A stretch of 51,477 nucleotides of DNA from Anaerolineae bacterium (lineage in GTDB: Bacteria > Chloroflexota > Anaerolineae > Aggregatilineales > Phototrophicaceae): NCBI GenBank assembly GCA_026645945.1, contig JAPKMO010000019.1, positions 1-51,477 on the forward strand, in the 5' to 3' direction. Made by a program: the position numbers and the translations under genes. The notes beneath the pieces are model-generated. The model saw nothing but the letters and a program-made list of their open reading frames with translations, had not been told where the DNA came from and did not search any database. Each line of letters opens with the position of its first letter. The first letter of the stretch is position 1. Shown here in pieces: positions 17,912-28,610 of this stretch.

Positions 17912-20674
17912 TCAAACAGGCTCCATATCCCGCCAGTTGAGGCCGACCTGAGCGTTAGCCCGCAGGGGGGCATCCAGCACGTAGGCCGCTTCCATCGTTT
18001 GCACGACCAGGGCGGCAGTGGTTTCGAGTTCGGCATCCGGTACTTCGAGGACGAGTTCATCATGCACTTGCAGGATGATCTGGGCGTTCAGGCGGCGGCG
18101 CTGGAGTTCTGCATACAGGTCAATCATGGCGCGTTTGATGATGTCGGCGGCGCTGCCCTGGATAGGGAAGTTGATGGCGACCCGCTCGTAAGCCTGGATG
18201 ATCTGCCGGTTGGCCGTTTTGCCGCCGGAAAGGATGGGAAACGTGCGGCGGCGGTGAAAGAGCGTTTCCAGACCTTCTTTCGTCCGGGCATTAGCTTTGG
18301 TCTGTTCCAGATAGCGTAAAACGCCGGGCATCCGGGCGAAGTACCGCTGGATAAAACGTTCGGCTTCGGCAAACGACAGGCTGCTTTCACGCGCCAGGCG
18401 GTGCGCGCCCATGCCGTACATCAGGCCGAAGTTAATACGTTTGGCAAAACTGCGCTGTTCGTAGGAAACCTGATCGAGCGGGATGTCGTAGATGGCCGCC
18501 GCCGTCGCGGCGTGGATGTCCTGCCCCTGGGCAAAGGCTTCCAGCAGGGTGCGATCCTGGCTGACATGGGCGAGAATCCGCAGTTCGATCTGGCTGTAGT
18601 CGGCAGAAAGCAGCTTAAAGCCCGGCGGGGCGACGAACGCGCGCCGCACTTTACGGCCTTCGTCGGTGCGGATGGGGATGTTTTGCAGGTTCGGGCTGCT
18701 GCTGCTCAGCCGTCCGGTAGAGGTTCCAGTTTGATTGTAGCTGGTGTGGACGCGCCCGGTATGCGGGTTAATCAAGGCGGGCAGGGCGTCTACATAAGTG
18801 CCTTTCAATTTGGCGATTTCACGGTAATCCAGGATTTTTTCGATGATGGGGTGCTGGCCGCGCAGGCTTTCCAGCACATCGGCGGCGGTGGACTGGCCGT
18901 GAGCCGTCTTGCGGGCTTCCAGGACGCGCAGCCCCAGCTTGCCGAATAACACGTCGTTAAGCTGTTTGGGGCTGTTGATGTTAAACGGGCCATAGCTGCC
19001 GAGCGCGTAAATCTCGTTTTCCAGGGCGGTCAGCCGGACTGTCAGTTCTTCGCTCAGGTTTCGCAAATGGGCCACGTCCAGCGCGACGCCGGCCCGCTCG
19101 ATGGCGGCGATGACGGGAATCAGCGGCATTTCGAGTTCCTCGAACAGCGCCGTGAGCTGCATCTCGTCCAGCCTGGGGCGCAGGTGGCCGGCCAGCCGGT
19201 GCGTGATGGCGGCATCGGCGGCGGCGTAAGGGGCGGCGCGCTCGACCGGCACTTTGTCCATCGTGATCTGTTTTTTGCCCCTGCCGATCAATTCCGCGAT
19301 TTCCGTCATGTGGACGTTCAATTCCTGGCGGGCGAGATTTTTAAGCCCCAGGAATTTGCTTTCAGGGTCGCGCAGCCATTCGGCGATCATCGTATCGAAG
19401 GTGATGGGCGACACGTCCAGGCCGTACCGCTGCATCATAACCAGATCGTAGCTGGCATTGTGGGCGTATTTGGCGATGTGTGGGTTGGTCAGCGGCGGGC
19501 GCAGGGCATCCAGGACGGTTTGCAGGTCAAGCTGCCGGCCTTCCCGGTGGCCGACCGGGATGTAATAGCCGGTTTCGCCGCTGACCGCCAGGGCAATGCC
19601 GACCAGTTCGGCGGCCATCTGGTCGGTGCTGGTGGTTTCGGTATCGAACGTGATGGCCGGGGCAGCGTTTAACACTTCAACCAGGGCGTCCAGTGCGGCA
19701 CGATCACGGACGATGATGGTTTCCGCGATGGGAGGCGCGTCGTCTGCCGGGGGCGAGGCTTCCGGGCTGGCAGCGAACAGAGGAAGCTGCTCTATCTGCT
19801 GCAGTTGGGGCAGGCGGTCGCGCAGGCCGCGAAATTCGAGTTCAGCGAACAACGAATCCACCCGCTGGGCGTCGAAGTCGTGGGCGGCGCAGGCTTTGAT
19901 GTCCAGCTTCACTGGCACATCGCGTTTGATGGCTGCCAGACGCCGGCTCAAAAAAGCGAGTTCGCGGCCATCGGCCAGCTTTTGCCCCAGCGATCCCTTG
20001 ATTTCGCTAACATGCTCGTAAACTTTGTCCAGCGAGCCGTAATCCTGGAGCAGTCTGAGCGCCGTTTTTTCGCCGACGCCTTTCACGCCGGGGATATTGT
20101 CGGAGGCGTCGCCCATCAGGGCTTTGAGGTCTACAAGCTGGTACGGCTCCAGGCCGTATTCCTCGCGGAAGCGCGCCAGGTCGTAGGTGGCATCGTTCAC
20201 GCCCCGTTTGGGGAAAAAAAGTTTAAGCGACACCTGCTCGGTAAGCAGCTGCAGCATGTCGCGGTCGCCGGTGACGATTCGCACGTTGAGGTCTTGCGCC
20301 TCGGCCTGGGTGGTGATCGAGCCGATCACATCGTCGGCTTCGTAACCATCGAGGGCTAAAATGGGGATGTTAAAAGCCTGCACCAGCTGTTCAATCCGCG
20401 TAAGCTGCTGTGCCAGATCATCCGGCATCTTCTCGCGCGTGCCTTTGTATTCGGCGTACAGGTCATCGCGCCCGCTTAAACCGCGATCAAAACTGACGGC
20501 GATATAATCCGGTTTATCCTTCTGAAAAATATCCAGCAGCGCGCGGGCAAAACCGAAGGTCGCGTTGGTCGGCTCGCCACTGCTGGTGCTGAAGCCGAGC
20601 GTTTGCAGGGCGAAAAAGTGTCGGTAAGCGACTGCATGGCCGTCTATAATATAAAACATGGAACGCGCAGGCAT
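17912..20674 (-). CDS. polA: DNA polymerase I with 5' nuclease and proofreading domains
   Basis: Repair and Okazaki-fragment-processing polymerase, 920 residues. The 5' nuclease domain covers 1-290 (GDRDMLQL, DASDNIPGVKGVGEKTA). The 3'-5' exonuclease (315-500) keeps its catalytic set: Asp344 and Glu346 in FDTETT, Asp410 in HNASYD, and Tyr483xxxAsp487; so proofreading should be active. The polymerase domain has motif A SADYSQIELRILAH, motif B RSFAKRINFGLMYG (Phe in the O helix) and motif C QVHDELVLE. The SD AAGGGG lies 6 nt from the ATG and sits within a small ACCC-GAAG-GGGT hairpin, which could limit initiation. A -10 TATAAT is at 20710-20715. Confidence 0.97.
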   Translation of the reverse strand: MPARSMFYIIDGHAVAYRHFFALQTLGFSTSSGEPTNATFGFARALLDIFQKDKPDYIAVSFDRGLSGRDDLYAEYKGTREKMPDDLAQQLTRIEQLVQAFNIPILALDGYEADDVIGSITTQAEAQDLNVRIVTGDRDMLQLLTEQVSLKLFFPKRGVNDATYDLARFREEYGLEPYQLVDLKALMGDASDNIPGVKGVGEKTALRLLQDYGSLDKVYEHVSEIKGSLGQKLADGRELAFLSRRLAAIKRDVPVKLDIKACAAHDFDAQRVDSLFAELEFRGLRDRLPQLQQIEQLPLFAASPEASPPADDAPPIAETIIVRDRAALDALVEVLNAAPAITFDTETTSTDQMAAELVGIALAVSGETGYYIPVGHREGRQLDLQTVLDALRPPLTNPHIAKYAHNASYDLVMMQRYGLDVSPITFDTMIAEWLRDPESKFLGLKNLARQELNVHMTEIAELIGRGKKQITMDKVPVERAAPYAAADAAITHRLAGHLRPRLDEMQLTALFEELEMPLIPVIAAIERAGVALDVAHLRNLSEELTVRLTALENEIYALGSYGPFNINSPKQLNDVLFGKLGLRVLEARKTAHGQSTAADVLESLRGQHPIIEKILDYREIAKLKGTYVDALPALINPHTGRVHTSYNQTGTSTGRLSSSSPNLQNIPIRTDEGRKVRRAFVAPPGFKLLSADYSQIELRILAHVSQDRTLLEAFAQGQDIHAATAAAIYDIPLDQVSYEQRSFAKRINFGLMYGMGAHRLARESSLSFAEAERFIQRYFARMPGVLRYLEQTKANARTKEGLETLFHRRRTFPILSGGKTANRQIIQAYERVAINFPIQGSAADIIKRAMIDLYAELQRRRLNAQIILQVHDELVLEVPDAELETTAALVVQTMEAAYVLDAPLRANAQVGLNWRDMEPV

Positions 20675-20709
20675 AAAAACCCCTTCGGGTGGTTGAACAT
20701 TTGTGCTTA

Positions 20710-20715
20710 ATTATA
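20710..20715 (-). promoter_or_regulatory. polA -10 element
   Basis: Exact TATAAT on the minus strand about 35 bp before the ATG. At 17 bp further upstream lies only TTTTTT, the U-tract of the preceding terminator. A near match to GAAC-N4-GTTC (GAAC-ATTT-GTGC, 20695-20706) falls on the predicted start site. Confidence 0.5.
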
Positions 20716-20732: not shown

Positions 20733-20757
20733 AAAAAAGTGCGCCGGCAAACGGCGC
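20733..20757 (-). terminator. Terminator of the 976-residue receiver-like gene
   Basis: Minus strand: stem GCGCCG/CGGCGC (20752-20757 with 20741-20746), 5-nt loop, then TTTTTT (20733-20738). It begins just past the stop codon and separates this gene from polA. Confidence 0.75.
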
Positions 20758-20758
20758 G

Positions 20759-23689
20759 TTAAAGCATTCGCTGGAAGTTGATAAATTCCAGGATTTCCTC
20801 GGTTTGCAGATCGCGCCCCGGCGTGAGGATATAGTAGCTGTCTGCCCATAACATCTGTGGCGTCAGATCAGCCGCCTGGGTATGGGCGATTTCCGCCGAA
20901 CGGCGGCGCAGGTCGCGGATGATCTCGTGGGGCGGTTTTTCGCCGGGGACATCGGCCAGCAGGTAGATAAAATCTTCATGCACCTGAAGGTTGTGAATTT
21001 TCCAGTTCTGCTCCTGGAGCTGGATGGTCAGCCCGGCGATGATGGCTTGTGCCACTGCATCGCTCAGGCGATCTTGCGGGTCGCGCAGCAGCCACACGCA
21101 GGCATAAGTATTGTAGGTGATGGTTTCGACCGGGACTAACGGGGCTGGCTCCTGTACGGGTTCCTCCGGAGCCGGCTCCGGCACGGACTCCAGCGCCCGC
21201 GCCAGGCGCTGCGCCTGGTGGCGGATGACACGCAGCGGCGTTGCGCCGGCGAAAATCATGGACAGCGTGAGTTCGCCGGTCGTCTGGATGGAATAGAGCA
21301 TGTAGTCTTTGCCGCTGCTGGGCAGGCGGATGAAGCGGAAGCGCGCGCCGTCGGAGTTTGACTGCCAGTCATTGGCGACCACATCCCGCAGTTCGAGGAT
21401 GTCCTCCGGGGACAGGTGGCCGGCGAAGGCCATAATTTCGCTGCCGCGCGTCAGGATCGTGCCTTCGGCGGTCAGTTCCAGCGAAACCTGGGTCAGATTC
21501 AGCGCCAGTTGGGCGATATACGGATCGTCCGATTCGTCAGCGACGACATCCTCGGCGGGGGGCATATCGGGCAGCGGCGGCCAGCTTTCCAAAACTTCTT
21601 CTGCTGCATCCTGGACTGCAGCGGCGCTTTCAGGCTCGTTTTCGGCCTCCGCCTCCTCCTCAACAAACGGCCATTCTTCCTCGGCTTCCAGATCGAACCC
21701 GATAAAAACGGATGACTGGTCGTTTAGATTGGCAGGCGGCGCGGCTTCGGTAACGGGCGCGGCGTCAAACTCCGGCAGCCACTCCGGGTTTATCGCGGCG
21801 GCAGGCCTGGCCGGCGGGGGCGGCTCGTCTGGCGTGACCGCTTTCGACGGCACGGTATCTTCCAGGTAGCCGGTGTCGAGGGCCGTGTCTCCTTCCAGCG
21901 TGGGCGGCACAAACTCCTCCTGGACAGCGGTCGAAGGGCGGGTCGTGCGGCTGCTGGCGTCAGAAGGTGGTTCTTCAGGCGCTTCGGGGGGTGCATCTTC
22001 GGGCAAATGCAGCGGCACTTTTGGGGCGCGGCGCGGCCTGGGGCGGGCTGCGGCAGACGGCAGAGTTTCGCCGGGCGGCAGTTCCTCCGGCAGAAAGTCC
22101 GGTTCGGATACACCGGTGTCGCTGACGGCGCGAAAGGCTGATGTGTCCATGTTCCATGACGGAAGCGGCCTGATTCTGAGTTTGTGAGACGCCAGGCGGC
22201 TCTCGATCTCGCTCATCACTTCATCAAGCGGCATAGCCTCCGGCTGGTCAAGGGTGGTTCTAAGGACGACGTGCGCGACCGATTCTTCGTCGGCATCACT
22301 CTGATCGGGAAAATCAAAGCCCCACCAGTCCGGGCCGGGTTCGGGACGCGCCCCCGGCGGCGGCACAGAGCGAATCTGCGCCGCGTCTTCGGCTTCTTCC
22401 GGCAGCACTTCGCGGCCTGTAAAGGCGCCGGCGAAATCATCCGGCGCTTCTGGCGGGGCTGGCGCGCGCTCGTGGACAGCCTGGCTTTCCTCGACTTCTT
22501 CGCCGCGCAGCATCGCCAGCACGCTGTAGAAACCTCTGTCGCCGATGCCAACCATCAGATCGCTGACCGTGCCGCTTTGCTCCAAGGTGGGCATGGGCGG
22601 TTCTTCTTCGGCCAGTTTTTGGAAGGCGGCGTCAGGTTTTGGCGGCGGCTCTTTTAAGGGGCCAGTTTTCGCCTTTTCGATTTCTTTAAGGACGGCATCC
22701 ATACCCGATGTCAGGATGAAGTCGAGTGACTGCTGCTGGCGTTCGGGCAGCGGTGTATGAGGCGCGTCGCCCCGCATCGAGGCGACCAGTTCTTCAAAAT
22801 CAGCCTGGCGGCCACTTTTAGGCGGCGCGGGTTGGCCTGGCTCGATTGCGCCCAGGATTTCGTCGAAAGTGTGCGGCGCTGCGTCCGGCGAAGTTGCAAG
22901 ATACTGGCGCACCGCGTCCGAATCGCGTTCCGGCACTGCTGGGGTATCTTCTTCGCCGGCCAGCGGCTCAAAATCGAAACTCTTGAGGACATCATCCAGG
23001 GGCGAAAACTCCGGCAGGCCGGGTGGCGGCGCAGGGGTGTCGTCACCCAGGGTGCGGGTCTGCGCCGGGGGCAGCTCATCATCCAGCGTGCGGGTCTGCG
23101 CCGGCGAAACGGCGGGAGGTTTTTCGTCCTGGTCGTCGTCATCAAAAATGCGCGTTTTGCCGACCGGCTGGGCAGGTTCCGGCTCATCCTCAAAAATGCG
23201 CGTCTGGCCGGAGGACTCAGCCTTTTTTTCATCGACTCGACGGGTGGGAGGCGGTGGTTTGGGTTCTTTTTCCCCCAGGACGCGGGTTCGGTTTTCGACA
23301 GCGCGACGAGTTTGCGGCAGCGCGGGGGGCGCTTCGCCGCCGGTCAGTTCGACGGCCTGCTGGATTACCGGGATGAGGTCGCGGGCGGTGAAAGGCATAT
23401 CAATCGCGCCCTGGATGTCCAGCAGGTCGGCATCCAGCTGATCGGGCGTGGCGATAACGGCGATGTCGGGCTGAATGTCTCGAAGCTGCTGGACGATCTG
23501 CGCCCCCGGTTTGCCGGGCAGGGTGAAATCCACCAGCGCGACATCCTGGGGATGATCGCGCAGGTAGTCAAAAGCGGCATCGGCGGTCGTAAACGGGTGA
23601 ACGTCAAACACGCCGGTTTGTTCGAGGGCTTGTTTGATCGTTACGGCGAAGACCAGCTGCCGGTGGATAATCAACAGTCGTGTTGCCAT
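20759..23689 (-). CDS. Pseudo-receiver / disordered linker / inactive Y1 (IS200-like) transposase-fold protein
   Basis: A 976-residue cytoplasmic protein of unknown function. Residues 1-115 form a CheY-like receiver: Asp54 (LVDFTLP) and Thr81 remain, but the acidic pair is His9-Arg10 and the Lys is Met98 (DMPF), so normal Mg-dependent phosphorylation is doubtful. Residues 120-720 are acidic and proline-rich, with six TR(I/T/V/R)(F/L/V) motifs between 134 and 217. Residues 722-834 look like a roadblock/profilin-like domain (tentative). Residues 854-976 follow the IS200/IS605 TnpA fold: HIHILAD of TnpA corresponds to FIYLLAD (Phe907, Tyr909 replace both HUH histidines), LWxxSxFI-TxG to LWADSYYILTPG, and the catalytic Tyr in YIENQ is Phe969 in FINFQ. 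So no nuclease activity is expected. The promoter spacing predicts a leaderless mRNA. Confidence 0.8.
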   Translation of the reverse strand: MATRLLIIHRQLVFAVTIKQALEQTGVFDVHPFTTADAAFDYLRDHPQDVALVDFTLPGKPGAQIVQQLRDIQPDIAVIATPDQLDADLLDIQGAIDMPFTARDLIPVIQQAVELTGGEAPPALPQTRRAVENRTRVLGEKEPKPPPPTRRVDEKKAESSGQTRIFEDEPEPAQPVGKTRIFDDDDQDEKPPAVSPAQTRTLDDELPPAQTRTLGDDTPAPPPGLPEFSPLDDVLKSFDFEPLAGEEDTPAVPERDSDAVRQYLATSPDAAPHTFDEILGAIEPGQPAPPKSGRQADFEELVASMRGDAPHTPLPERQQQSLDFILTSGMDAVLKEIEKAKTGPLKEPPPKPDAAFQKLAEEEPPMPTLEQSGTVSDLMVGIGDRGFYSVLAMLRGEEVEESQAVHERAPAPPEAPDDFAGAFTGREVLPEEAEDAAQIRSVPPPGARPEPGPDWWGFDFPDQSDADEESVAHVVLRTTLDQPEAMPLDEVMSEIESRLASHKLRIRPLPSWNMDTSAFRAVSDTGVSEPDFLPEELPPGETLPSAAARPRPRRAPKVPLHLPEDAPPEAPEEPPSDASSRTTRPSTAVQEEFVPPTLEGDTALDTGYLEDTVPSKAVTPDEPPPPARPAAAINPEWLPEFDAAPVTEAAPPANLNDQSSVFIGFDLEAEEEWPFVEEEAEAENEPESAAAVQDAAEEVLESWPPLPDMPPAEDVVADESDDPYIAQLALNLTQVSLELTAEGTILTRGSEIMAFAGHLSPEDILELRDVVANDWQSNSDGARFRFIRLPSSGKDYMLYSIQTTGELTLSMIFAGATPLRVIRHQAQRLARALESVPEPAPEEPVQEPAPLVPVETITYNTYACVWLLRDPQDRLSDAVAQAIIAGLTIQLQEQNWKIHNLQVHEDFIYLLADVPGEKPPHEIIRDLRRRSAEIAHTQAADLTPQMLWADSYYILTPGRDLQTEEILEFINFQRML

Positions 23690-23757: not shown

Positions 23758-24936
23758 TTATGGGCCGGTGACGGTAATGGAAAGGATGCCGATGTTGTTC
23801 ACTTCGCTGACTTCGGTCACGTTGTTGTCGGAGTCGGCTATTGCCCGAATTTCATAGTTTCCGGCGGCATTAAAGGTCGCGTTCACCGTCAGCACGATGC
23901 TCGTTCCCGCGTCCAGGCCGGAAACAGCGCCCAGATCAGCCTCCAGGCCGCCGGGCAGGATCACCTTATTGTTAAACGGCCCGGTAGACCGGCTGCCGGG
24001 TAACGTGTTATTCGTGATGGTGATCGCATACTGCCGGACAACTTCGGTTGACCCTGGTGGGATGGTGACGCTGGTTTCGCCGCTGATGCTGGTGATAACC
24101 AGATCGGGCAGGCCAGGCGTGGCCGACGGTAACGGCGTGTTGGTCGGTCCCGGTGTGAACGTCCAGGTGGGGAAGGGCGTCAGCGAAGGCTGCGGTGTGG
24201 CCGTTGCCGGCGGGGCGATGATCGGCACATTGGAGCAGATGCCGTACAGCGCGACGTATTTTTCGTTGGGGTTAGAGGGATTCTGGGCTGCAACCCAACC
24301 GACACGCGAACCGAACTGGATTTGATACCAGTCATTCGCGCCGGTGCGACCGATGATCGGCGCGACCGTGCCGGCGTTCAGGACGGTGATCTGCGGGAAA
24401 TTCACCCCCGCGCCCTCCCGCAGCCGCAGGCCGACGTTGGTGAGCAGGCGGCAGGTGGGATCGTTGGGGTCAATGATCGGTACATTGGGCTGCTGGACGG
24501 CGGTCGCCGTCACCTGGGTTTGACTGGCGCGAATGTTGACCGTTACTTCGGCGGGGTCGCTGGCGATAGCACCGCGATAAGCGACGATCTGAAGGGTAAC
24601 ATCGCCTTCCTGTCGCGGAGTGTAGTCCAGCAGGACTTCAAAATTGGTTTGCCCGGAAGCGGATTCCGACGAGGTGGTTTTTACAATCTGGTCATTGGCG
24701 ATCAACTGCACCCGCGTAACGCCGACCGCATCGCGGGCATTGGCGGTCACGAAGATTTGTTCGTTGACAACGAACTCGTCCCCTTCTTCGGGAGACGTGA
24801 TGCTGACCACCGGTTTTCCGCCGGGGTTGATGGTCGGCACGTCAAGCGGCTCGCCGGTGGGCGGCTGCGTGGACAGGTTGCAGGCGGCCAGAATGACGAC
24901 TAACAGGCCGAATAATAAACGCGAATAGGCGCGCAT
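23758..24936 (-). CDS. Lipoprotein with Ig-like, SH3b and CARDB-like domains
   Basis: Surface-anchored protein of 392 residues. The signal sequence ends in the lipobox LAAC (Cys19), so it is lipid-modified. Residues 40-135 are an Ig-like/cadherin-type domain (VVSITSPEEGDEFVVNEQIFV). Residues 160-235 form a bacterial SH3 domain (LRLREGAGVNFPQITVLNAG, GRVGWVAA), which typically binds peptidoglycan or peptides. A Thr/Pro spacer (240-285) leads to a CARDB-like beta-sandwich (286-390, PDLVITSISGE, NVTEVSEVNN). No enzyme motif is seen. Probably a cell-surface binding or scaffold protein; partners unknown. Confidence 0.85.
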   Translation of the reverse strand: MRAYSRLLFGLLVVILAACNLSTQPPTGEPLDVPTINPGGKPVVSITSPEEGDEFVVNEQIFVTANARDAVGVTRVQLIANDQIVKTTSSESASGQTNFEVLLDYTPRQEGDVTLQIVAYRGAIASDPAEVTVNIRASQTQVTATAVQQPNVPIIDPNDPTCRLLTNVGLRLREGAGVNFPQITVLNAGTVAPIIGRTGANDWYQIQFGSRVGWVAAQNPSNPNEKYVALYGICSNVPIIAPPATATPQPSLTPFPTWTFTPGPTNTPLPSATPGLPDLVITSISGETSVTIPPGSTEVVRQYAITITNNTLPGSRSTGPFNNKVILPGGLEADLGAVSGLDAGTSIVLTVNATFNAAGNYEIRAIADSDNNVTEVSEVNNIGILSITVTGP

Positions 24937-25127: not shown

Positions 25128-25775
25128 TCAGTCAATCGGCTCTTTGTAGATGATGTAACGACCCATGTCGTCACCCTTGCCGATGCAGGTACTCAAATCC
25201 ACCTTGAACTCCCGCCCACCGGATACCCAGCGCAAGCCCTCTTGCAGCAAGCCCTGACCGACGAAACACACCGCCCGGTCGGTCTTGCGCCCCCAGCACA
25301 TCGGGCAGCGTTCCAGGGTGTAGATCAGCCGGTCGTCGCCCTCCTCGAAGACGTTGGAAATCTGATCGGAGAACTGGGAGAAGATGTTCGCCATCGCCGG
25401 CACGCCGACCTTGAGCTTGGCCGACATGGGCAGCACCTTGAAGGCCAGGTCACCCACACCGGCCAGGGCGCCGAAGCCGCGCAGCGCGTCGGCGAAGAGG
25501 GTGCGTCCGACCCGCAGCGCCAGGCCGCGTCCGCCGCGCGGGCCGTACATCTCCTCCAGCGCCACGCACAGGGCGGTGAAGTCGGCGAAGTCGAAGGCTT
25601 TCTCCAGGTTGTCGGGCGGGTAGTTATCAATCAGGTTATCCAGGCCAGCCAGGTGGAGGACGGCGTTGAGGCCGTTCTTCCCCATCACTTCTTCCATGGC
25701 GTCCAGGAAGATGCGGGCGAACTTGTTGGGATAGTAGTATCCGCTTTTTTCAGGCGGCATAAAGAAGTCCTCCAT
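25128..25775 (-). CDS. V4R-domain (4-vinyl reductase-like) protein
   Basis: A 215-residue cytoplasmic protein whose C-terminal half fits the V4R/hydrocarbon-binding fold: the CPMC pair, then VCFVGQGLLQEGLRWVSGG, then DLSTCIGKGDDMGRYIIY, with four cysteines placed as expected for a metal site. V4R domains are small-molecule-binding modules found in BchJ and in sensor proteins; no photosynthesis gene is nearby, so a bacteriochlorophyll role is not supported. The N-terminal 100 residues are helical. The gene stands alone and diverges from the ABC ATPase gene. Confidence 0.7.
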   Translation of the reverse strand: MEDFFMPPEKSGYYYPNKFARIFLDAMEEVMGKNGLNAVLHLAGLDNLIDNYPPDNLEKAFDFADFTALCVALEEMYGPRGGRGLALRVGRTLFADALRGFGALAGVGDLAFKVLPMSAKLKVGVPAMANIFSQFSDQISNVFEEGDDRLIYTLERCPMCWGRKTDRAVCFVGQGLLQEGLRWVSGGREFKVDLSTCIGKGDDMGRYIIYKEPID

Positions 25776-28504: not shown

Positions 28505-28610
28505 AGATAAACGGAAAAAATGAGCCTGAGACAGTGGGCTTCAGCCCACTGGCAACGGGCTGAAGCCCGCTGTCTACTCAAGATCAGGCACGGTCTGATT
28601 GGTTTATCCG
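28505..28610 (+). repeat. Dispersed two-hairpin repeat, copy B
   Basis: About 106 bp bounded by short inverted ends (GATAAAC at 28506 and GTTTATC ending at 28608). It holds two hairpins: CAGTGGGCT/AGCCCACTG at 28532-28551 and CGGGCT/AGCCCG at 28556-28569. The copy at 40354-40462 is the reverse complement, near identical over the ends and second hairpin and differing mainly in compensating or loop positions of the first. MITE/BIME-like; no coding capacity. Confidence 0.85.

Follow-up and report, generated by a model that had tools for sequence, protein, structure and literature searches.

A Y1 transposase fold without its catalytic residues in a receiver-type protein conserved in Aggregatilineales

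The stretch of DNA analyzed here (the window) comprises 51,477 nt of contig JAPKMO010000019.1 in the assembly GCA_026645945.1, from an Anaerolineae bacterium of the order Aggregatilineales. It contains a gene for a protein of 976 amino acids (aa) in which a receiver is followed by a linker of about 610 residues, a Roadblock-like domain and, at the C-terminus, a domain predicted to have the Y1 fold of TnpA, the transposase of IS200/IS605 elements. The gene and its parts are the following.

20759..23689, minus strand: gene of the receiver, disordered linker, Roadblock, dead Y1 protein; open reading frame (ORF) of 976 aa with a TAA stop, the single match of profile A1 in the genome.
23351..23680, minus strand: degenerate receiver (REC), residues 4-113; Pfam Response_reg and family profile.
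21179..21517, minus strand: Roadblock/LC7-like (MglB-like) domain, residues 725-837; predicted with AlphaFold and Foldseek, and by a family profile.
20762..21130, minus strand: dead Y1 (IS200/IS605 TnpA) domain, residues 854-976; profile, AlphaFold model and Foldseek.
20963..20971, minus strand: former histidine-hydrophobic-histidine (HUH) motif, now F907-I908-Y909.
20783..20785, minus strand: former catalytic tyrosine, now F969.

The Y1 fold and the catalytic positions

A Y1 fold of the C-terminus had been proposed earlier from the letters alone, without database searches (the sequence-only reading), and residue 854 of the minus-strand ORF does fall on position 21130, where that reading had placed it. 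Pfam Y1_Tnp (PF01797) aligns to residues 861-971 over positions 6-119 of the 121 profile positions, with 36.4 bits (cut-off 23) and an E-value of 6.5e-9, and the NCBIfam model for IS200 transposases, NF033573, scores the protein at 35.5 bits, under its cut-off of 55. With a single query sequence, phmmer found the IS200-type transposase 2f4f among the PDB sequences at 8e-5; a profile of 26 relatives found it at 7.4e-21, and the strongest eight matches of that profile were transposases. The AlphaFold model of residues 854-976, calculated from eight sequences (the window protein and seven relatives), had a predicted local distance difference test score (pLDDT) of 89.6, a predicted TM-score (pTM) of 0.83 and the order E-H-E-E-H-(H)-E-H of strands (E) and helices (H). 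In a Foldseek search of the PDB, ranks 1 to 30 were all Y1 chains, 29 of them IS200/IS605-type or putative transposases and one a RAYT protein, with E-values from 7.2e-9 to 2.1e-5, followed at rank 31 by an unrelated chain (1e-3). Thus, the Pfam profile, the PDB sequence searches and the predicted structure agree on the fold. Neither a different fold nor a lack of Y1 profile similarity, the two outcomes named beforehand as speaking against the assignment, was found by profile and structure comparison.

The likeness to the IS200/IS605 transposases (PF01797; 2f4f, 2ec2, ISDra2 2xm3, IS608 2vhg) covers the full-length fold and profile, the order of the landmarks, the LW..SY and TPG segment and the position of the tyrosine helix. 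In contrast to these enzymes, the window domain has no HUH motif, carries Phe in place of the Tyr, is acidic, and forms the C-terminal part of a long signalling protein. Its gene also differs from those of a mobile multi-copy element, as it is the single A1 match in the genome and has gene neighbours that are common across families; tnpB and element ends were not searched for.

The replacement of the HUH histidines by Phe907 and Tyr909 and of the catalytic tyrosine by Phe969 was read correctly, as the residues are indeed F, Y and F. To the question whether these positions are always lost, the family gives a divided answer. Among 95 distinct Y1 domains in frames of at least 300 aa (with the odd protein L128 and frames cut by the locus end included), none retains both histidines (0/95), yet single residues persist: position 1 is His in 5 domains, position 2 in one, and the tyrosine position is Tyr in 25. 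Altogether, 65 of the 95 domains lack all three catalytic residues, and the only one pairing a His with the Tyr is that of L128. Domains of the f32 type, from compact relatives described below, show the motif Y-x-Q in 24 of 24 cases and keep the Tyr in 21. In the comparison set with both histidines, the Tyr is also present in eight of nine sequences, the ninth being cut short. Judged by these residues, the Y1 domain is catalytically dead, with a broken HUH motif and a tyrosine that is usually replaced.

A Y1 fold kept by its host is also found in the TnpA-REP/RAYT proteins, one of which (4er8) is the chain at rank 30 of the Foldseek search. According to the accessible text of a survey of Y1 proteins, TnpA-REP proteins have conserved HuH and Y motifs and repetitive extragenic palindromic (REP) repeats (PMC6006769), whereas the window domain keeps neither motif. 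Intact HUH and Y motifs flanked by REP hairpins, the mark of a RAYT, were not found here: the residues are lost, the hairpin at 28529-28575 lies about 5 kb away, and the gene's own flanks were not scanned for further copies. The same accessible text lists five of ten class 3 members without HuH or Y and states that sequences with both motifs were kept and unexpectedly long ones discarded, so that dead, long Y1 proteins would not show in that survey (PMC6006769). A review of recruited mobile elements names IS200/IS605, in its accessible part, for the nucleases derived from TnpB/IscB (PMC8987985). Our literature search, which left subscription papers mostly outside its coverage, found no publication that combines Y1_Tnp with Robl_LC7 and no description of a response regulator with a dead Y1 domain.

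Receiver, linker and Roadblock-like domain

The receiver-type N-terminus claimed in the sequence-only reading stands, as Pfam Response_reg matches it with 31.0 bits (cut-off 30.2). Asp54 is retained, and the acidic pair and the Lys are replaced. Across 68 receivers of the family, the Asp is present in 60, the Lys in 35 and a D at one acidic position in 19. Response_reg scores above its cut-off in four of eight scanned relatives (L036, L120, L123, L124) and below it in three (L118, L129, L130), and does not match L132. Such a degenerate receiver points to partner binding rather than to a classical phosphorelay.

About 600 disordered residues had been placed between the receiver and the Y1 domain. 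A low-complexity linker of about 610 aa is indeed present, but residues 725-837, which would have belonged to the disordered part, are modelled as a Roadblock/LC7 domain. The linker is rich in Pro, Glu, Ala and Asp, and between receiver and Roadblock its length varies from 17 to 1101 residues across the relatives. Conserved short motifs are found in the long linkers; those of the window are the following.

23045..23287, minus strand: five copies of T-R-x-[LFI]-[DENGS]; regular-expression scan.
22556..22606, minus strand: EEPPMPTLEQSGTVSDL, residues 362-378; the form EEP[PD]xP...GT[VI] occurs in 20 of 68 linkers, and shuffles expect 0.0.
22154..22171, minus strand: RPLPSW; P[LP]PSW occurs in 24 of 68 linkers, with 0.04 expected.
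22091..22105, minus strand: EPDFL; EPxFL occurs in 23 of 68 linkers, with 0.22 expected.

The repeat motif in its form T-R-x-[LFI] is present in 44 copies in 14 of the 68 linkers, compared with 2.5 expected from shuffles, and the window linker holds all four motif types. Because shuffles ignore shared ancestry, these counts mean non-random sequence and not independent gains.

For the domain before Y1, an AlphaFold model of residues 717-976 (Roadblock and Y1) had a pLDDT of 71.8, and DSSP assigned the order H-E-E-H-E-E-E-H. Foldseek matched this domain to Myxococcus MglB (6hjm, 2.2e-5; 6izw, 3.3e-5), a Roadblock family profile matched 70 of 71 full-length relatives, and the NCBIfam MglB model gave a weak match in one relative (0.018). 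On the strength of the model and the profile, we call the domain Roadblock-like.

Fusions of REC with Robl_LC7 have been reported, and these proteins, like the polarity regulators MglB and RomR, share a receiver and a Roadblock domain with the window protein; a Y1 domain or a polA neighbourhood is not mentioned for them in the accessible text (PMC4316618). MglB itself is described, in the accessible sources, as a stand-alone Roadblock GTPase-activating protein, unlike the fused domain in the window. In the conservons (Cvn), the Roadblock protein CvnB and the GTPase CvnD are tied to two-component signalling and Ras-like GTPases, as far as the accessible texts go (PMC4316618, PMC13343842). In contrast to them, the window protein has an additional Y1 domain, and the GTPase profile PF00025 has no match on the window contig.

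Distribution, selection and descent

Profile A1 matches 140 of the 154 genomes of the order. Among the matches listed, the Y1 match lies in an open frame of 321-1474 aa in 134 of the 154 genomes, a count that includes G785, the source of L128; three further genomes have a shorter frame only (G666, 249 aa; G684, 178 aa; G788, 157 aa), and the weak matches in G146, G786 and G790 stand outside this count. In a sample of the class, 25 of 298 genomes have a match to the Y1 domain, and in a sample of the phylum 102 of 400. Beyond the class, the frames among the matches listed are 90-213 aa long, the size of ordinary transposases, with the exceptions of G326 (290 aa) and G498 (580 aa, interrupted by one stop). 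Compact versions of the protein, about 500-590 aa in length, occur in f32 and f56, two other families of the class. Receiver, Roadblock and Y1 occur in that order in 68 of 71 distinct complete frames carrying Y1. The exceptions are L046 and L047 (430 and 433 aa), which have no receiver match, and L128, which has neither receiver nor Roadblock.

L128 (G785:C112, 1274-3400) represents a different Y1 fusion, a protein of 709 aa in which repeats resembling squalene-hopene cyclase (Pfam) precede a C-terminal Y1 domain with a single His and the Tyr preserved. The family f32 also has short dead Y1 proteins that stand alone (L138-L143, L146; 144-231 aa), up to four of them in a single genome (G651), and some (L138, L139) adjoin ORFs with receiver domains. 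These stand-alone proteins are a second expansion of non-catalytic Y1 domains.

The ratio of non-synonymous to synonymous substitution rates (dN/dS), calculated for the window protein against L032 and L033, its two nearest relatives, was 0.083 in both comparisons for the Y1 domain, 0.211 and 0.10 for the receiver, 0.099 and 0.146 for the linker, and 0.042 and 0.045 for the Roadblock domain. In a functionless remnant, the ratio is expected to drift towards 1.

The charge of the Y1 domain differs between lineages. The median isoelectric point (pI), a crude proxy for DNA binding, is 4.67 for the 71 domains that are not of the f32 type, 8.74 for the 24 f32-type domains and 9.55 for the domains with both histidines, a set of nine, one of them truncated. 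Among the 71 domains, one is basic (L019, 9.51) and the rest have values of at most 6.47. The acidic Y1 domains in the window's order favour protein docking over binding of hairpin DNA. Thus, of the DNA- or protein-binding module envisaged in the sequence-only reading, the DNA half is weakened for this order.

A tree was calculated from 117 distinct domains at less than 75% identity (81 rows, 126 columns, one truncated row excluded); its bootstrap had not settled. A branch (98/84) sets the eleven intact-type domains apart; the fused domains split into a group of the order and an f32 group, with L128 beside the intact-type domains. As the root is not known and the columns are few, one capture with later divergence and two captures both fit.

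The polA junction and possible roles of the protein

The gene is followed on the same strand by polA. The features around the gene are the following.

17912..20674, minus strand: polA (DNA polymerase I), next gene downstream, a neighbour only; its start lies at most 710 nt from the gene end in 36 of 52 loci.
20695..20715, minus strand: TATAAT and GCACAAATGTTC, promoter-like element in the gap between the gene and polA; the form G[ACT][ACT]CANN[CT]GTTC occurs in 31 of 48 distinct junctions other than those of f32 and f56.
20741..20757, minus strand: terminator-like hairpin and T run right after the stop codon.
23758..24936, minus strand: Big_7-SH3-CARDB protein (Pfam), next gene upstream, a neighbour only; at most 1 kb upstream in 25 of 52 loci.

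Farther upstream, at 25128-25775, the window encodes a 215-aa protein that has no Pfam match at E 0.01 and has homologues of 76-85% identity upstream of the gene in eight fetched stretches.

The count for polA refers to the 52 loci with enough flank, measured from the polA start, and one further locus was too short. The 36 loci with polA on the same strand within this distance come from the window's family and from f2, f3, f5, f32 and f56; polA is not adjacent in the other 16 loci (f4, part of f1, f2 and f5, and single loci of f6, f60 and f137). None of the other tested neighbours of the window is found in the f32 stretches L129-L134, which extend no farther than about 4 kb on the polA side. 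The pair of gene and polA thus looks conserved amid changed surroundings.

The analysis also covered 40 stretches upstream of polA from other families or from genomes without a clear match, four of them only 0.5-1.5 kb long, at a threshold of E 0.01. No receiver, Roadblock or Y1 was found before polA in 32 of the 40. In L164 and L173, a receiver and a Roadblock domain without Y1 lie directly before polA; L158, L165 and L179 have a receiver ORF there (that of L165 resembles an ordinary response regulator), L162 and L195 have a Roadblock ORF, and L160 has a diverged receiver-Roadblock-Y1 protein 1.6 kb from polA. Receiver-Roadblock genes next to polA thus also occur outside the Y1 fusion. Either an acquisition of Y1 or several losses of it would fit this, but such genes are not a general feature of the class.

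The terminator-like hairpin and the promoter-like element in the window's gap suggest that polA probably has its own promoter and that its link to the gene is positional. A simple operon with polA is ruled out as stated by the same two elements, and the adjacency alone is kept. At the junctions of f32 and f56, 17 of the 24 cases examined (including L131-L134) have a GCAGAG/CTCTGC hairpin in the gene-polA gap, and in 12 the loop contains TATAAT. The strict palindrome with TATAAT is present as a single copy per genome in 7 of 10 genomes, always at the gene-polA junction, whereas each of the 10 genomes has 1-6 sites of the looser form CGCAGAG-N4-24-CTCTGCG (reversed control, 0-1). In view of these 1-6 sites, a dedicated f32 operator at the polA junction is not claimed. 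The window junction has no GCAGAG..CTCTGC palindrome. At the junctions of the window, L118, L119 and L152, the sequence beside the polA promoter box, GCACAAATGTTC in the window (20695-20706) and GAACACCTGTTC or GAACATCTGTTC at f3 junctions, resembles the LexA-type motif GAAC-N4-GTTC. LexA-type regulation of polA was considered but not adopted; the window 12-mer occurs once in the genome.

The architecture, the loss of the catalytic residues, the purifying selection and the wide conservation are established here from sequences and predicted structures. In the explanation that we favour, and to which as a whole we give about an even chance, the protein is the product of an ancient exaptation and works as a signalling scaffold. 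The exaptation itself, with the dead Y1 domain as the C-terminal module of an atypical response regulator, is borne out by sequence, structure prediction and genome comparison; the mechanism is inferred. In such a protein, the receiver, with its canonical phosphorylation residues largely lost, would sense a partner or an atypical signal. The Roadblock domain would dimerize or dock a Ras-like small GTPase of the MglA/CvnD type, and the dead Y1 domain would offer another dimeric surface, on which proteins could dock in the acidic form of the Aggregatilineales. Both together may form a dimeric platform at the C-terminus, and the long linker with its conserved short motifs would recruit clients, so that the whole protein would act as a signalling scaffold that neither cuts nor joins DNA. 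As far as the accessible literature goes, MglB-RomR-MglA and the conservons are the known parallels for this mechanism. Two GTPase ORFs (L203, L204) are present in the same genome, as is a receiver protein without Y1 whose Roadblock match is below the cut-off (L202); none of the three is on the window contig.

Several observations weigh against this explanation. Pfam Robl_LC7 (PF03259) has no match in the window protein up to E 10, nor on the window contig, and the Roadblock assignment depends on a moderately confident model together with a family profile. Binding of a GTPase by the Roadblock domain is inferred from MglB/RomR; L203 and L204 lie on contigs other than the window's and were called MglA/CvnD-like by eye, and the search with PF00025 is unspecific, as it matches 12 of 14 control genomes. 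Pfam Y1_Tnp scores above its cut-off in six of eight scanned relatives, but below it in L120, and does not match L124. Against the relatives L034 and L035, the dN/dS of the Y1 domain rises to 0.171 and 0.18, at a dS near 1. Moreover, a nucleic-acid role is conceivable for the f32-type domain, which is basic (median 8.74) and has the Tyr in 21 of 24 cases.

The strongest competitor, for which we see a smaller though appreciable chance, is a DNA-binding response regulator, with the dead Y1 domain as a classical output domain that recognizes a palindrome or hairpin, for example where the gene meets polA, and controls either polA or itself. In its layout, with a receiver and a C-terminal fold that formerly bound DNA, the protein resembles a transcriptional regulator; 36 of 52 loci have polA within the next 710 nt, the f32-type Y1 is basic, and the GCAGAG..CTCTGC palindrome is found in 17 of 24 f32/f56 junctions, with its strict TATAAT form unique in 7 of 10 genomes. 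However, Y1 is acidic in the window's order, polA is not adjacent in 16 of 52 loci, and the palindrome looks like a terminator, with 1-6 sites per genome in its looser form; the window junction lacks it and has a terminator-like hairpin and a separate promoter-like element instead. A division of roles is conceivable but rather doubtful. Hairpins of DNA or RNA, perhaps at the polA junction, would then still be recognized in the compact basic lineage, while the Aggregatilineales form would have become an acidic protein-docking module, and the transposase-derived Y1 would be an output domain of response regulators not described before, spread over a large part of the class.

That the domain is the functionless remnant of a recently fused, decaying insertion sequence is very improbable: the catalytic residues are lost, IS200-type genes tend to decay and Y1 proteins without core motifs are taken as non-functional in the accessible text of PMC6006769, but this reading is refuted by the conservation (134 of 154 genomes of the order have the match in a long frame, 68 of 71 frames share the architecture, the dN/dS is 0.083 and the fold is confidently predicted) and faces a second lineage of the class with identical domain order. 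The low dN/dS and the adjacency to polA in 36 of 52 loci argue for an old exaptation and not for a decaying insertion sequence; the exaptation of a transposase fold proposed from the sequence alone is thus upheld concurrently by the tests of profile, structure, conservation and dN/dS. We give just as little credence to the idea that the domain is still catalytic and uses unusual residues. Of the 95 members, 25 keep the Tyr and 6 keep one His, and a solved homologue, dr_0177 (2fyx), has Y-V-H at the motif, yet the window protein lacks all three residues, and in none of the 95 domains does a His or Tyr at position 1 occur together with both the His at position 2 and the catalytic Tyr. Least probable of all is an unrelated ferredoxin-like domain that merely resembles TnpA; this fold class is common, and chains of ACT-type, EF-G and other proteins are found at E-values of 1e-3 and above, but the profile E-value of 7.4e-21, the Pfam score above cut-off and the 30 best Foldseek matches, all of them transposases, speak against it.

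Taken together, the results suggest that a transposase fold was recruited into signalling in a group of Chloroflexota. We regard this exaptation as real, old and widespread. With the Y1 fold kept and its chemistry dropped in a conserved signalling protein, it is a clear case of a single-strand transposase that has become a regulatory module, in contrast to host-recruited Y1 transposases of the RAYT type, which have been described with their catalytic motifs kept. As an experiment of nature, it would show which functions the Y1 fold can serve when catalysis is gone. There is also a consequence for annotation: the relative L129 scores 61.8 bits against the NCBIfam cut-off of 55 for 'IS200/IS605 family transposase', despite its Roadblock and receiver-like domains, and counts of mobile elements in Anaerolineae may thus be inflated.

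The hairpin at 28529-28575 is a copy of a dispersed family of REP-like palindromes, with 278 matches per strand in the 4.7-Mb genome at up to two mismatches (reversed control, 0; fully palindromic copies are counted on both strands). The genome's other Y1 match, in L001 (G000:C19:11963-13787, positions 1501-1760), covers profile positions 22-86 only and keeps H-V-H. It follows, in the same frame, an MmeI/Eco57I-like N6-methylase whose N-terminus is HsdR-like, and it extends into a copy of the REP-like palindrome. Because the repeat is dispersed and REP-like, and the H-V-H Y1 protein adjoins a copy, binding of the repeat at 28529-28575 by the dead Y1 domain is not favoured. L001 appears to be a RAYT/REP unit associated with a restriction-modification gene, close to the end of a contig.

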